The notes under the pieces are model-generated. The model worked only from the letters and a program-made list of their open reading frames with translations. It ran no database searches and had not been told where the DNA came from. A stretch of 64,000 nucleotides of DNA, from assembly GCA_016463705.1 (NCBI GenBank), contig JAEMQU010000005.1:26530-90529 (forward strand), in the 5' to 3' direction. Source of the stretch: Opitutales bacterium. GTDB lineage: Bacteria; Verrucomicrobiota; Verrucomicrobiia; Opitutales; UBA953. Each line of letters begins with the position of its first letter. The first letter of the stretch is position 1. The position numbers and the translations under genes are program-made. Shown piece after piece: positions 15,115 to 24,306 of this stretch.

Positions 15115-15229
15115 GAATGAAATTTAACCTTTCTTATAAAGAGGTGCAAGGATGGGTCGTTCACAATTTAAGTAAATTAGCCGAGCGATGCTTGCCACCG
15201 CCCATCTTTTGCTCAAGGTTATGGGTCCT

Positions 15230-15835
15230 ATGGCTAACGACGACGAAGAAGAAGAGAAAACCCCCGAAGCACCTAAAGAGGCTACACCGAGCGCTCTGCT
15301 CATCCAGAAAAAATTCCTCGAACAACGTAAGCTCTTCCTCTGGGGCGCCGTCGATGATGCTTCAGCGAAAGACATCGTAGAAAAACTCCTGTACCTCGAA
15401 ACTTCCGATCCAGGAAAAGAGATTACTTTTTATATCAATACTCCCGGAGGTTCGATTACGGCAGGTATGGCGGTCTACGATACCATCCGCTTAATTACCT
15501 CACCCGTTAAAGTAGTCGTCACTGGTATGGCTGCGTCCATGGGATCCATCTTACTGCAAGCGCCTAAACAAAAAGGGGGCCGCCTCGTTTTCCCTCATGC
15601 TCGGGTGATGATTCACCAACCACTCATTATGGGTCGCATTCAAGCCCCTGCCGTCGATATTCATATTCAAGCTCTCGAGATGGAACGCCTGCGCGCCGAG
15701 CTAAATGAAATTCTCGCGAAGGCCTCAGGACAAAAACTCGAGAAAGTGGTTAAAGATACTGATCGAGATTTTTACATGACCGCCGAAGAAGCCATTGAAT
15801 ATGGTCTGGCGGATGCGATCGTTAAAAAACTTTAA
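15230..15835 (+). CDS. clpP: ATP-dependent Clp protease proteolytic subunit ClpP (alternative starts 15188 and 15221)
   Basis: NTPGGSITAGMAVYD, GMAASMGS, MIHQPL, DTDRDFYMTAEEAIEYGL. Confidence 0.93.
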   Translation: MANDDEEEEKTPEAPKEATPSALLIQKKFLEQRKLFLWGAVDDASAKDIVEKLLYLETSDPGKEITFYINTPGGSITAGMAVYDTIRLITSPVKVVVTGMAASMGSILLQAPKQKGGRLVFPHARVMIHQPLIMGRIQAPAVDIHIQALEMERLRAELNEILAKASGQKLEKVVKDTDRDFYMTAEEAIEYGLADAIVKKL

Positions 15836-15846
15836 TCCACAGATTA

Positions 15847-16740
15847 ATGGGCATCGGCAATCGAGCCTATATGCGAAATACGATTCCCTTTCGCTCAGGG
15901 ATATCGGCTACCACTATCATCCTGTGTTTGATTGTCGGATTCTATCTGGTTAATCTCGTCCAAGACTCGACGCGTACCGACTTAACCTCTTGGGCCACCC
16001 TGCCCGAAATTAATTCCGCCCCCTGGCAGTGGTTTACCTACGCCTTTATTCATTATAGTTTTTGGCATCTCTTGGGTAATGGGCTGGGGCTTTGGTGGTT
16101 GGGAAAAGTTGTCGAAGATCACTACGGCGAAAAAGTATTCTACCTAACACTCAGCGGCGGAATTATTCTAGGGGCATTTTGCTGGTGGCTAACGGGCGTG
16201 AGTGGAGTGCGCTCCGAAAATCATAGCTTAATTGGAATCTCTGGCGGCGTCTATGCACTCATGGTTGTAGCTCTACTGAATCGACTAGACCAAGTCATCA
16301 CCCTGTTACTTTTCTTTTTTATTCCCGTTAATATAAAAGCCCGCTGGCTTCTCATCACACTCCTGGTCATCACGGTTTTGGGTTGGGGCTTTTCCGAATT
16401 ACCTGGTCGACATACCTGGACAAGTTGGAAGCCGGCACTTGACTGGGCGATGGGCACGAGCCTCGCTCATTCCGCGCACCTTGGAGGGTTTTTGTTTGGG
16501 TGGCTGATGTGGAAATATCAAAATCAAACAAATCGGTCAGGTAGTGGCGCTCTATCTATAATGGGCACCCCTTTCGACGATGATAATACAATGTCTATGC
16601 AGCCGAAAAACGGCCAAAAAATCAGCCAAGTCCGTGCAGAATTAGACGCGCTGCTCGATAAAATTTCCGTCAAGGGTTTCGGCTCGCTCACCGAGTCCGA
16701 AAAACGCAGACTCGCCGAACTCAGCGATCAACTGAAATAA
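15847..16740 (+). CDS. Rhomboid family intramembrane serine protease
   Basis: Multiple TM; HYSFWHLLGNGLGLW, GISGGVYAL (catalytic Ser), SAHLGGFLFGWL (catalytic His). Confidence 0.9.
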   Translation: MGIGNRAYMRNTIPFRSGISATTIILCLIVGFYLVNLVQDSTRTDLTSWATLPEINSAPWQWFTYAFIHYSFWHLLGNGLGLWWLGKVVEDHYGEKVFYLTLSGGIILGAFCWWLTGVSGVRSENHSLIGISGGVYALMVVALLNRLDQVITLLLFFFIPVNIKARWLLITLLVITVLGWGFSELPGRHTWTSWKPALDWAMGTSLAHSAHLGGFLFGWLMWKYQNQTNRSGSGALSIMGTPFDDDNTMSMQPKNGQKISQVRAELDALLDKISVKGFGSLTESEKRRLAELSDQLK

Positions 16741-16747
16741 AATTTCC

Positions 16748-18952
16748 ATGACCCTTCGCAGCTTCTTACTTTTTGTTTTCGCCTTCCAGTTAAGTTACGG
16801 CGAGCCAGTAAAATTTACGACCACGGAGTTAATGCAGAATGAAACACGGGCGACCGTAGCATTACTGGAGCGCCTCCATATCAGCAAAAAACAGATGGCG
16901 GATGTGGATACTAAAGAGGTAATCACTACCTACTGTGAAAATTTAGACCCCGGTAAAATGTACTTCACCCAGGCGGAAGTAGATGAATATGTCAGTCGTT
17001 ACGGTCGCAGCTTAGATTTATATTTAACTCGAGGAAATCTCACCCCAGCGTTCGAGATTTATCAAGCGTTTCGCAAACACGTGGAAGAGCGCACGGCTAG
17101 CTCCATCCAGTCCTTAAACCAAAAAATCGATTTAACTCAAGCGGGCTTCTTCCCTACCGACCGAAAAAAAGGCAACTGGCCGAGCGACAGCAAAGAAGCC
17201 GATGATTTATGGAGCCGTCGTTTAAGATTAGATATTCTGAGTGAATTATTAGGCGATGACCGGATGAACAGTAACAACCGTAATGAGCCTAAACAAAAGC
17301 CGACGCACGAAACCAAAGCGCCCGAAGTTACTCCTGAAAAAATTGCCGAAGCGGTGGTGCGCCTGAAAAAGCGTTACGAAAAAATTAAAATCTATTTAAG
17401 TTTTGATCCCCAAGAAGTTGAGGAGCTATTCCTCAATTCTTATTCTACCCAGTATGATCCACACTCCATTTTCTTCTCCCAGCAATCCTTCGAAGAATTT
17501 GAAATCGGTATGCGTAATTCGCTCTGCGGAATCGGTGCCACGCTCACCGACGAAGACGGCTATTGTACCATCAAGGAAATCTTGCCCGGTGGCCCTCTCT
17601 TTCTTTCTGGCAAAGCCAAATCGGGAGATAAAATTATTGCCGTCGGACAAGGTAAAGACGGCGAGATGGATGATATCGTCGGCCTACGCCTCCAGAAAAC
17701 GATTAATCGTATTCGCGGAAAACAAAACACGATTGTTAAACTTTTAGTCGAATCGGGCGATGGCAGTGGCCGAAAAACCATCATCCTCGCCCGTGATCAA
17801 ATTAAGTTATTCAATCAAATGGCCTCTGCGCGTTGCTTTGAAGGTCAGAACGGAAATCTTGGCGTAATCGAACTTCCCGCTTTTTACGGAAAAAATCCTG
17901 ATGGAACTGGCTCGAGTCCCACCAAGGATGTTGAGCAACTGATTGTTAAACTCAAAGCCATGGGAATCCGGGCACTGATTGTCGATTTACGTAAAAATGG
18001 CGGGGGTCTCCTCAATGAAGCCGTCGATTTATCCGGACTGTTTATTCCAACGGGCTCCATTCTGCAAGTGCGCGACAGCCAAGGACGTATTGATAATTAC
18101 CGCGATGAGAATGCTAAAGTCGCTTGGGACGGTCCGCTCATCGTTCTCACTTCAAAACTTTCCGCTTCAGCCTCGGAGATTTTTGCGGGGGCGCTGAAAG
18201 ACCACCGTCGCGCTCTCGTGGTGGGCGATACAACCACCCACGGAAAAGGATCGGTGCAGAATATCATCGAACTGAATCGCGTGTTTAAGGAGCTAGATAT
18301 CAAGTCCGCCGTTAAAGTGACTATTCAAAAATGGTACGCACCAAGCGGATCATCGATTCAACTCAAAGGGGTCCCTGCGGATATCATTGTGCCTTCCGTA
18401 TTCTCTGTTCTACCCGTAGCAGAATCTGATTTAGACCATCCCCTCCCTTGGGATTCCATTCCTGCTTCGCTCACTAAACCCGATGAAGGTCCGTGGTTAA
18501 AGGCGCCGCTCTCCGATAATTTAATTAATATTCTCAAAGAAGCATCCGCTAAACGTCAGGCTGAGCTTCCTGAATTCTCTACGCTTAATCACTCTATCGA
18601 ATGGACGCGCAGTCGCACCAATCGCAAAGAGGTCTCACTCTCACTCGAGCAACGTCGCCAAGAGCGCACCGATGATCTCACCTTCCGCGGGCAAGTTCGT
18701 AATGAGCTCAATCAATTCTCCAAAAATTCATTCAAGGCCACGGATGTAAAATTAGATACTGCCCTAGAACAGGAAAAGAAGGAAGGCCCTGAATATACGA
18801 ATAAATCTAAGCGCCAGTCGCGCATCCGCGAGCCACTCGAAGATGAAGACTGGCCCGACTACGATATTCAACTTCAAGAAGCTGTCCGCATCGCCGACGA
18901 CTGGAGTAAGTTAGTGGCTGATAAAACTTCTACGACTGCACCTATACGTTAA
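16748..18952 (+). CDS. prc: Carboxy-terminal processing protease (Prc/Tsp, S41) with PDZ domain
   Basis: Signal peptide; [27 protein letters not shown]; catalytic SKLSASASEIFAGALKDHRRALVVGDTTTHGKGSVQ. Confidence 0.93.
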   Translation: MTLRSFLLFVFAFQLSYGEPVKFTTTELMQNETRATVALLERLHISKKQMADVDTKEVITTYCENLDPGKMYFTQAEVDEYVSRYGRSLDLYLTRGNLTPAFEIYQAFRKHVEERTASSIQSLNQKIDLTQAGFFPTDRKKGNWPSDSKEADDLWSRRLRLDILSELLGDDRMNSNNRNEPKQKPTHETKAPEVTPEKIAEAVVRLKKRYEKIKIYLSFDPQEVEELFLNSYSTQYDPHSIFFSQQSFEEFEIGMRNSLCGIGATLTDEDGYCTIKEILPGGPLFLSGKAKSGDKIIAVGQGKDGEMDDIVGLRLQKTINRIRGKQNTIVKLLVESGDGSGRKTIILARDQIKLFNQMASARCFEGQNGNLGVIELPAFYGKNPDGTGSSPTKDVEQLIVKLKAMGIRALIVDLRKNGGGLLNEAVDLSGLFIPTGSILQVRDSQGRIDNYRDENAKVAWDGPLIVLTSKLSASASEIFAGALKDHRRALVVGDTTTHGKGSVQNIIELNRVFKELDIKSAVKVTIQKWYAPSGSSIQLKGVPADIIVPSVFSVLPVAESDLDHPLPWDSIPASLTKPDEGPWLKAPLSDNLINILKEASAKRQAELPEFSTLNHSIEWTRSRTNRKEVSLSLEQRRQERTDDLTFRGQVRNELNQFSKNSFKATDVKLDTALEQEKKEGPEYTNKSKRQSRIREPLEDEDWPDYDIQLQEAVRIADDWSKLVADKTSTTAPIR

Positions 18953-20293
18953 TTAGCGAGCACGGTACAAACCGTGGGGATCGTAGATCCACCAAGCGTC
19001 GAACGGATTAGATAATGAGGGTAGCTCATAATAGGGCTTACCACTTGCGTCGGCTTTAATCGAAACACCAGAGTATTCCGATTGGGCAGATTTAGGTAAT
19101 GCAGCCGTGGGCGTAGGCACCGGCGCAAGCATATCGAGCACCGCAGTCTCTTCGATGCGATCCACGACGACATCGATCCATTTAAGTTCTTTCGCTTTCT
19201 CACCAAAGGCCTGCCAGTCACCGGTGGAGTCGTTCTCATACATCTTCTTAACAAAGTCATCCAGCGAGATGCCCATCTTCTTTGCCACGGGCGTCGCCAT
19301 GCGTTCAAACCATAACTTGGTGAACTCAATCTGCTCCTTCAACACGGTCATATTACCTCTGACACTATTCGAGACCTGATGATGGAGAATGATGGTATTA
19401 GGATAGCAGAAAGATTTTTCGGCACACGCGGCAATCACCGCAGTCATCGACGCGGCAAAGCCCTTGACCACCACATAAACAGGAGCCTTCGACGCCGTCA
19501 TCGCCTTCTGAATGAGGTATCCCGCTGAAACAGATCCACCTGGGCTGTTATCGACCACGATAAAAATCGGGAACTCGCTGGATTGATTATTATAAAAATT
19601 AATGCGCTGGCTAATGTAGTCGGCTAATTGATCGGTGACTGCACCATTAAAAGTTATCCGACGATCGGTGATATATAAAACACCATCAACGTAGGGGTCT
19701 TTTAAATATTTCGGTTTAACATTAGTGGCAATTTTTCGCGCTTCGTCTTCTTTTTGAAAACGATTAATTTCGTTAGTTAAGCGAGTCACCGTATTGCTCG
19801 CTTCTAATTGTAATTGTTTAGCATCCGCTTCGAGCTCACGAATTTTATTATTCTTTTCGATTAAGCGTGCAGTGGAGCGGGCAAGTTCGAGGGCGGACTG
19901 ACGTTCGAGTTTCGTGCGTTCTTCTTCTAAAGCAGAGGCTTCGGCTGACGCTTTGGCCAAACGGAGTGAGCGCTCAGCGGACAGTTTCATCGCTTCGGAG
20001 TTTAAGGGCGCAATCTCTTCCATGCGCTTGGCTTCCTGGAGAGCAAGTTGCGCATCAATTAAAGCCTTCTCCACACGCATGCGGTCCACTTCCTTCATCT
20101 TCTCTTTCTGCTCAGGGGTTAAATCTTCGCGAGTAATCGCCGGACCCGGCGCCACCGTGGTAGGCAGCGAAGCGTTGGAGGAAGAAGGTGCATTCACGCT
20201 GTCGCCATTCGTTGTCTTAACGGGCGTTGCTTGGGCAAAAAGAATAGGCCCAACCAACAAGCTGAAGATTTTTAAGGAAGTATGTTTAGACAT
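18953..20293 (-). CDS. Secreted ClpP-like serine protease with N-terminal coiled coil (paralog A); start revised to MSKHTSLKIF
   Basis: Signal-like N-terminus (..SLLVGPILFAQA); heptad-rich middle; ClpP core NSPGGSVSAGY, GFAASMTA, FCYPNTIILHHQ, NDSTGDW. Confidence 0.82.
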   Translation of the reverse strand: MSKHTSLKIFSLLVGPILFAQATPVKTTNGDSVNAPSSSNASLPTTVAPGPAITREDLTPEQKEKMKEVDRMRVEKALIDAQLALQEAKRMEEIAPLNSEAMKLSAERSLRLAKASAEASALEEERTKLERQSALELARSTARLIEKNNKIRELEADAKQLQLEASNTVTRLTNEINRFQKEDEARKIATNVKPKYLKDPYVDGVLYITDRRITFNGAVTDQLADYISQRINFYNNQSSEFPIFIVVDNSPGGSVSAGYLIQKAMTASKAPVYVVVKGFAASMTAVIAACAEKSFCYPNTIILHHQVSNSVRGNMTVLKEQIEFTKLWFERMATPVAKKMGISLDDFVKKMYENDSTGDWQAFGEKAKELKWIDVVVDRIEETAVLDMLAPVPTPTAALPKSAQSEYSGVSIKADASGKPYYELPSLSNPFDAWWIYDPHGLYRAR

Positions 20294-20309
20294 GTTTTTG
20301 TTTTTAAAA

Positions 20310-21473
20310 TTAGCGGTAAATGAATTCGGTGGAAGGATCGTAAACCCACCAAATATCAAAAGGGGTTAAGGGATTTAAAGCAGTGGTGCCGTTGAGACTA
20401 TCGGGATTTAACTTAGCCAAAGCGGGAACCGCCGCCGTATTATTTACCCCTTCTTCAGTCATACGATCAACCACGTGCGTGACCCATTTTAATTTAACTG
20501 CTTCGGTTCCTAAAACTTTCCAATCACCTGTAGAAACAGCGGCGTACATTTTGGCGACAAACTCATCGACTGTGATGCCCATTTTATTCGCGACCTTTAC
20601 GAAAATTCTTTCGCACCAAATTTTAGACCACTTTAATTGCTGTTCTAACTGGGTCTGATTTCCGGAAAGCGATGTGCTCGCTTGATGATGAAGTACAACC
20701 GTCTGTGGATAAACGTAGGACTGCTTAGCCATCGTGGTAATAATCGCAGCCATCGAGCCCGCATAGCCCTTAACCACAACATAAACAGGAGCCTGCGATG
20801 ACTCCATCGCTTGTAGGATTTGGTAGCCCGACATCACCGAACCGCCAGGCGAACGTTCAATCACAATAAAGATGGGGGCTGTTTTATCTAAGGCATTATA
20901 AAAAGCGATGCGGTCACACACAAACTTCGCCAACGTCTCATCGACGATTCCGTTAAAAGAAATTCTGCGGTCGGAAATACGCAAAACGCCTTCGGCCAGT
21001 GGTTCCAGAGGATACTCAATTTTTCCGCTCGTGGTTTCGACTACTTTTTTCTGAAGGCGGGCAATCTCTCCCATTTTTTCTAAACGCGCGTACTCAACGG
21101 TAGCCTGCGCATTGGCGAGTTTGACATCCGCTTCAAATTCTGCGCGACGGGCATCTTTTTCGCCCGAAGCTAGAGCGGCTTTAACATTGGCAATTGAAGT
21201 CTTTAAATTGAGCAGGGATTTTTCGGCGTCGTCCATCGCTCCAGCGGCCTCGGTCTTGAGTTGGCGGATTCGACTTTCTACCTCGAGTTTTTTAATCTCT
21301 TGATCGGACGCTTGTTTAGCCTGGCGGCGTTGCGATTCTACTAAATCTAAACGCGTGCGGACAATCTCGGCCTCGACCTCGATCTGGATTGTTTGCGGGG
21401 TTTTTTCAATGCGACGAGGCTGAGCCTGCAATGCAGTTACCAAAAGTGACAAAATAAGGGCCAAACGGGTCAT
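20310..21473 (-). CDS. Secreted ClpP-like serine protease with N-terminal coiled coil (paralog B)
   Basis: Signal peptide MTRLALILSLLVTALQAQ; coiled coil; RSPGGSVMSGYQ, GYAGSMAA, YPQTVVLHHQ, STGDW. Confidence 0.82.
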   Translation of the reverse strand: MTRLALILSLLVTALQAQPRRIEKTPQTIQIEVEAEIVRTRLDLVESQRRQAKQASDQEIKKLEVESRIRQLKTEAAGAMDDAEKSLLNLKTSIANVKAALASGEKDARRAEFEADVKLANAQATVEYARLEKMGEIARLQKKVVETTSGKIEYPLEPLAEGVLRISDRRISFNGIVDETLAKFVCDRIAFYNALDKTAPIFIVIERSPGGSVMSGYQILQAMESSQAPVYVVVKGYAGSMAAIITTMAKQSYVYPQTVVLHHQASTSLSGNQTQLEQQLKWSKIWCERIFVKVANKMGITVDEFVAKMYAAVSTGDWKVLGTEAVKLKWVTHVVDRMTEEGVNNTAAVPALAKLNPDSLNGTTALNPLTPFDIWWVYDPSTEFIYR

Positions 21474-23718: not shown

Positions 23719-24306
23719 ATGATCGACGAACCACAAAACACCCCCACCCCACCGCACGCAGCTAACTCTCAAGGGGTTATCATTTCCACCGTCGTGGTGC
23801 TCTTCATCGCACTCGCGGTGGTAATTTTATGGAAAGGGTTACAGTGGAAGGAAACTATTGAAACACAAAAAACGCGCATCGAAGTTTTAGACGGTCAGGT
23901 CGCTACCCTCAAAACACTCAATCAAGATCAAGAAAATAAGTTGGCGGAAAATCGTGTAGCGATGGATGCGAAAGATGCCGACCTCAAGCGACTTAATGAA
24001 AAGCTGGTCCAAACTTTAAAAATCAACGAGGCCAATGTTAATGAGAAAAACGAGTTAGCCGATACGCTTACTAAAACAGAAAAAACGCTCAAGGAAACCA
24101 CTGAAAAAGTGACTCAACTCGAAACACAAAATGCGGAAACAACCAAAGCCTTACAAGCGTCCGAAGAGTTTGGTAAAAAATCTATCGCACAGGTCAATGA
24201 AGTGAATGGCCGCATCGAAAAACAGAACGCGGTGATTAAGGATCTGAATAAACAGATTGAGGTTCTCGTGATTAAAGTGAATACGCCAGCTCCTGAAAAA
24301 AAGTAA
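23719..24306 (+). CDS. Single-pass membrane coiled-coil protein, unknown function
   Basis: TM VVLFIALAVVILWKGL followed by long E/K/L/Q heptad-rich region. Confidence 0.7.
   Translation: MIDEPQNTPTPPHAANSQGVIISTVVVLFIALAVVILWKGLQWKETIETQKTRIEVLDGQVATLKTLNQDQENKLAENRVAMDAKDADLKRLNEKLVQTLKINEANVNEKNELADTLTKTEKTLKETTEKVTQLETQNAETTKALQASEEFGKKSIAQVNEVNGRIEKQNAVIKDLNKQIEVLVIKVNTPAPEKK

Follow-up and report, generated by a model that had tools for sequence, protein, structure and literature searches.

An adjacent pair of genes in an Opitutales bacterium probably encodes exported, ATP-independent serine proteases with a ClpP fold, which would act outside the cytoplasm and be held or gated by long helices. 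The genes lie on the minus strand of the window (the whole stretch of DNA analysed, 64,000 nucleotides), with paralog B first, paralog A next and a gap of 16 bases between them. The two proteins are 39-41% identical across almost their whole length.

20293..18953, minus strand: paralog A, 446 aa; signal sequence, Pro/Ala/Ser linker, 132-aa helix, ClpP fold and C-terminal aromatic tail
20228..20293, minus strand: A signal sequence, residues 1-22, MSKHTSLKIFSLLVGPILFAQA (signal rule and ORF translation)
19721..20116, minus strand: A long helix, residues 60-191 (AlphaFold; dN/dS 0.04)
19136..19681, minus strand: A ClpP-fold domain, residues 205-386, with S282, H305 and D359 (Pfam, alignment, Foldseek)
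18956..19066, minus strand: A C-terminal tail, residues 410-446, ending in FDAWWIYDPHGLYRAR (motif in 54/54 relatives; alignment)
21473..20310, minus strand: paralog B, 387 aa; signal sequence, 122-aa helix, ClpP fold and C-terminal aromatic tail
21420..21473, minus strand: B signal sequence, residues 1-18, MTRLALILSLLVTALQAQ (signal rule and ORF translation)
21033..21398, minus strand: B long helix, residues 26-147 (AlphaFold)
20445..20987, minus strand: B ClpP-fold domain, residues 163-343, with S240, H263 and D317 (Pfam, alignment, Foldseek)

Both genes were found where the first-pass annotation had placed them, but the start of A was moved from TTG 20359 to ATG 20293, because the starts of its orthologs fall at the latter position. 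The dN/dS ratios obtained with two near relatives were 0.03-0.08 for both genes and 0.009 across the ClpP core of A, values low enough to identify A and B as real genes. Both are under strong purifying selection, which is strongest on the ClpP core. Identity within the genus, excluding a near-identical sister, was 53-62% for B versus 68-73% for A, and B is evolving faster.

ClpP fold, catalytic triad and signal sequences

The Pfam CLP_protease profile matched A with an E-value of 6.5e-22 (78.7 bits) and B with 5.9e-19 (69.1 bits), against a cut-off of 20.2, and the top Foldseek matches in the PDB were all ClpP, the TM-score by target reaching 0.86 in A and 0.89 in B. In the AlphaFold models the core of A has pLDDT values mostly above 90; the same core is seen in B at lower confidence. 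The catalytic residues that had been picked out by eye hold in an alignment to E. coli ClpP (a reference identical to PDB 3mt6), where S97, H122 and D171 align with S282, H305 and D359 of A and with S240, H263 and D317 of B, the His being the second of the LHHQ motif. Among 54 relatives the Ser and the His are invariant (54/54 each) and the Asp is present in 53; the sole sampled member with an Asp to Asn change lies at L122:540-1940. By fold and triad, A and B belong to the ClpP / S14 superfamily.

Set against models of ClpP, SppA and NfeD (Pfam, NCBIfam), both proteins matched ClpP best by far. Bit scores for A and B were 22.8 and 23.7 with NfeD1b (gathering threshold 40), 17.9 and 19.1 with SDH (31.3), and a weak 23.4 and 19.7 with the SppA model TIGR00706 (155.45). 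By profile, A and B are not SppA, NfeD or SDH. SppA is a ClpP-class enzyme that works outside the cytoplasm without ATP, is held by a transmembrane anchor and uses a Ser-Lys dyad, as does NfeD. A and B would share with SppA the predicted extracytoplasmic location and the predicted freedom from ATP; they differ from it in having a triad and no such dyad and anchor. To NfeD1b and SDH the likeness is a remote one, seen by profile in the ClpP-like domain, and A and B lack the NfeD C-terminal domain and again carry a triad in place of a dyad.

With ClpP itself (MEROPS S14, Pfam PF00574) the family shares the fold, the Ser-His-Asp triad, the oxyanion Gly motif SPGGS and the position of the Asp. It differs in its predicted export, the missing axial loop, the replacement of the docking pocket, the gating Tyr and the ring-ring Arg, an N-terminal helix of 122-132 residues in A and B, and a C-terminal extension of about 45-60 residues. 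The extension ends in an aromatic tail, present in 54/54 relatives (D-x-[WYF], then an aromatic or similar residue, then [DNS]); the alignment shows none in E. coli ClpP. The canonical model TIGR00493 gave 56.5 and 41.2 bits against a cut-off of 308.6, a value that the canonical-looking ClpP2 of the window (194.7) also fails to reach.

Export was called with a home-made strict signal rule (n-, h- and c-region with an A-X-A site or lipobox) together with ortholog comparison. The rule was passed by 113 of 126 family ORFs versus 49 of 186 neighbouring ORFs, some of which are truly secreted, and most of the 13 family ORFs that failed it still looked signal-like by eye. Orthologs retain the character of the n-region and h-region despite changes of letters, and most family N-termini carry an A-X-A-type site. 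These results bear out the signal-peptide-like N-termini proposed for both paralogs in the first-pass annotation and support export of A and B by a predicted Sec-type signal sequence. A lipobox (FAGC, LGGC or LSGC) stands at the same place in six A-type orthologs of gut Opitutales, which are predicted lipoproteins (loci L096, L098, L099, L102, L105 and L106); their B partners have ordinary signals, which would make a natural difference in anchoring.

ATPase-facing residues and the long helix

ClpP is the textbook protease that depends on an ATPase gatekeeper. The IGF loops of Clp ATPases dock in a hydrophobic pocket of ClpP and also contact its axial loops (PMC8182300, PMC9823225). In S. aureus ClpP the pore is opened by the Y63A change, in which Ala takes the place of the Tyr (PMC8182300). 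ClpP can be activated by disturbing pore salt bridges, a reorganised pore electrostatics being sufficient (PMC6853987), and a salt bridge that includes R170 correlates with activity (PMC9823225).

Around mature residues 12-22 of E. coli ClpP, at the axial loop, the family alignment is gapped. None of the 54 relatives keeps the gating Tyr (Y62 in E. coli, Y76 in the precursor numbering; Y63 in S. aureus), all having V, I or M in its place. The ring-ring Arg170 is G in 53/54. Besides the Tyr, the pocket of ClpP is lined by M92, which is K or R in 54/54, and by V28, which is R in 53/54. The canonical docking interface is thus absent from the pair, with the axial loop gapped and changes of Y62 to V, M92 to K and V28 to R. 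The genome's own ClpP1 served as an internal control: its axial loop, Tyr and Arg are intact and it adjoins a ClpX-like ORF. Since this ordinary ClpP1 is retained, A and B are extra to the normal ClpP.

By these alignments the family has lost the docking and gating features, a point separate from export. The earlier view that ClpX or ClpA could not serve these proteins had been argued from export; it now draws on the lost residues and axial loop as well. With axial loop, gating Tyr and hydrophobic pocket missing, A and B would operate without a Clp ATPase and be ATP independent. The gating-Tyr change resembles the known ClpP-opening mutation, and since the Tyr is replaced, the pore may be open without an ATPase. 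In this the family is like ADEP-activated or Y63A-mutant ClpP, except that the putative open pore would be a natural, family-wide state and not the product of a drug or laboratory mutation. With R170 and other handle residues gone, A and B could be unable to form a double ring, whereas canonical ClpP stacks two heptameric rings.

The AlphaFold monomer models show a single unbroken helix of 122-132 residues in each paralog. In A the helix has pLDDT values mostly of 76-93 and is conserved (dN/dS 0.04 over residues 60-191); at 1.5 A per residue, 132 residues would span ~20 nm. The first-pass annotation had described this segment as a heptad-rich N-terminal coiled coil. The very long helix stands, but a coiled coil is not established: by several measures A showed no excess of heptad periodicity over shuffles (z 0.4-1.8) and B a moderate one (z 1.8-3.9), with the positive controls GCN4 and Lpp at z of about 4 and about 7. 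A heptad coiled coil was dropped as a claim. The comparison included a 195-aa protein also encoded in the window (23719-24306, plus strand), which has a helix with heptads and, at its N-terminus, a TM-like stretch; it had no Pfam match.

Distribution and genomic neighbourhood of the family

A genome scan returned 315 stretches encoding relatives. The best 79 loci are almost all from Opitutae or Verrucomicrobiaceae; the source genus includes Opitutia bacterium UBA953. One of the 79 is on a contig labelled Phycisphaeraceae (Planctomycetota; L117), which nests within the Verrucomicrobiota part of the tree and represents a transfer or misbinning. At a strict threshold, 41 of the 370 good genomes from Verrucomicrobiota carry the family. 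It occurs in 35 of the 36 genomes of the source's GTDB family, 32 of which have at least two matches, and the tandem pair is the rule there. Other families mostly have a single copy; second copies of their own were seen in two genomes of Verrucomicrobiales.

In the tree the family lies far from canonical ClpP, and B has long branches. Some inner branches are weak in the tree that places counterparts of both A and B, in the same B-A order, in gut Opitutales; because of these counterparts, the pair probably predates the split between the source genus and the gut Opitutales genera. The pair is part of a conserved exported family, singletons included, and not a local oddity. The family is distinct within Verrucomicrobiota and uncharacterised; no publication describing it was found in the open-licence literature.

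A viral origin was considered and dismissed, since no relatives were present in the viral contigs searched and the phage ClpP fold matches no better than cellular ClpP. Phage ClpP-related head maturation proteases are likewise ClpP-like and are not known to work with a Clp ATPase. Their model NF045542 gives a match at 4e-15, but the score is below its cut-off (56 vs 120 bits).

Neighbouring genes vary among families (hem, his, nudix, a thymidine phosphorylase recognised by eye, and a two-TM protein in some Verrucomicrobiales). A conserved operon partner was therefore dismissed, there being none beyond A and B themselves, and function has to be read from the anatomy of the proteins. The single ClpP-like gene of several Verrucomicrobiales has directly upstream of it a gene (L167:7658-8506, L169:4944-5906) for a protein in which two TM-like stretches flank a domain. 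Beside the pair in the window (15188-18952, plus strand) are genes for a second ClpP paralog of canonical type, for a rhomboid protease that carries DUF6576 and for a tail-specific S41 protease; with A and B they make a run of five protease genes, a putative functional cluster.

Alternative explanations and proposed mechanism

The N-terminus invites two other explanations. As an SppA/NfeD-type envelope protease, each protein would retain its signal as an anchor and, possibly aided by an SPFH partner, degrade signal peptides or fragments of membrane proteins at the inner membrane. The weak NfeD1b, SDH and SppA matches fit this, as do the ClpP-class enzymes known outside the cytoplasm in that group and the linker and helix of A, which could lead off a membrane anchor. 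We hold it to be improbable, since the best profile and every top structure match are ClpP, the triad is invariant here against the dyad of SppA and NfeD, an A-X-A-type site is present at most N-termini, six members are predicted lipoproteins, and the scanned neighbours of the pair and its relatives included no recognisable SPFH or NfeD gene. A cytoplasmic ClpP paralog, with the hydrophobic stretch as a pro-sequence and ClpX or another ATPase in attendance, would fit the N-terminal pro-peptide of ClpP itself and the ClpX-like and other Clp ATPase ORFs of this genome. It is very unlikely indeed, given signal features that persist through sequence divergence, the lipobox forms, and the loss of docking pocket and axial loop.

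A third possibility, compatible with the exported pair, is that one type of ring does most of the cutting and that B (or A) serves chiefly for regulation or as a scaffold. The faster evolution and long branches of B point this way, and tandem retention recalls two-ClpP systems, whose less active or ATPase-blind subunits offer a model for such a partner. Against it stands the full triad in B wherever sampled, and we regard this division of labour as possible, though not the likelier case.

For the preferred reading, an exported ClpP-fold pair free of ATP, we infer ring assembly, A-B partnership, the role of the helix and the substrates as follows. The Sec machinery would export A and B and the signal would then be cleaved, while in some gut relatives A would become a lipoprotein instead. 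The core, with its complete triad, would act in the periplasm as a constitutively accessible peptidase without a Clp ATPase, its putative substrates being peptides or unfolded proteins. From the core, the long helix would emerge where ClpP has its axial loop and ATPase face. It is probably an arm that gates access to the enzyme or holds it away from the membrane; it might thereby control oligomerisation or substrate access, as first suggested for the coiled coil. A and B probably cooperate, possibly in one mixed assembly.

A bolder version, which we put forward tentatively and would not expect to hold in full, is a periplasmic, self-compartmentalising ClpP-type chamber of A and B, locked open by the loss of the gating Tyr and axial loop and bearing a crown of ~20 nm helical arms that are lipid-tied to a membrane in some lineages. 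The arms rather than an ATPase would select what enters. If true, ClpXP would have an extracytoplasmic counterpart that works free of ATP.

The family resembles a natural experiment, in which a ClpP fold was placed in a compartment free of ATP and its gate and docking site were replaced by a long helix. Experiments on it could reveal if regulation of a ClpP barrel is possible in the absence of an ATPase, and could assign a function to Verrucomicrobiota genes that profile searches file as Clp protease subunits.
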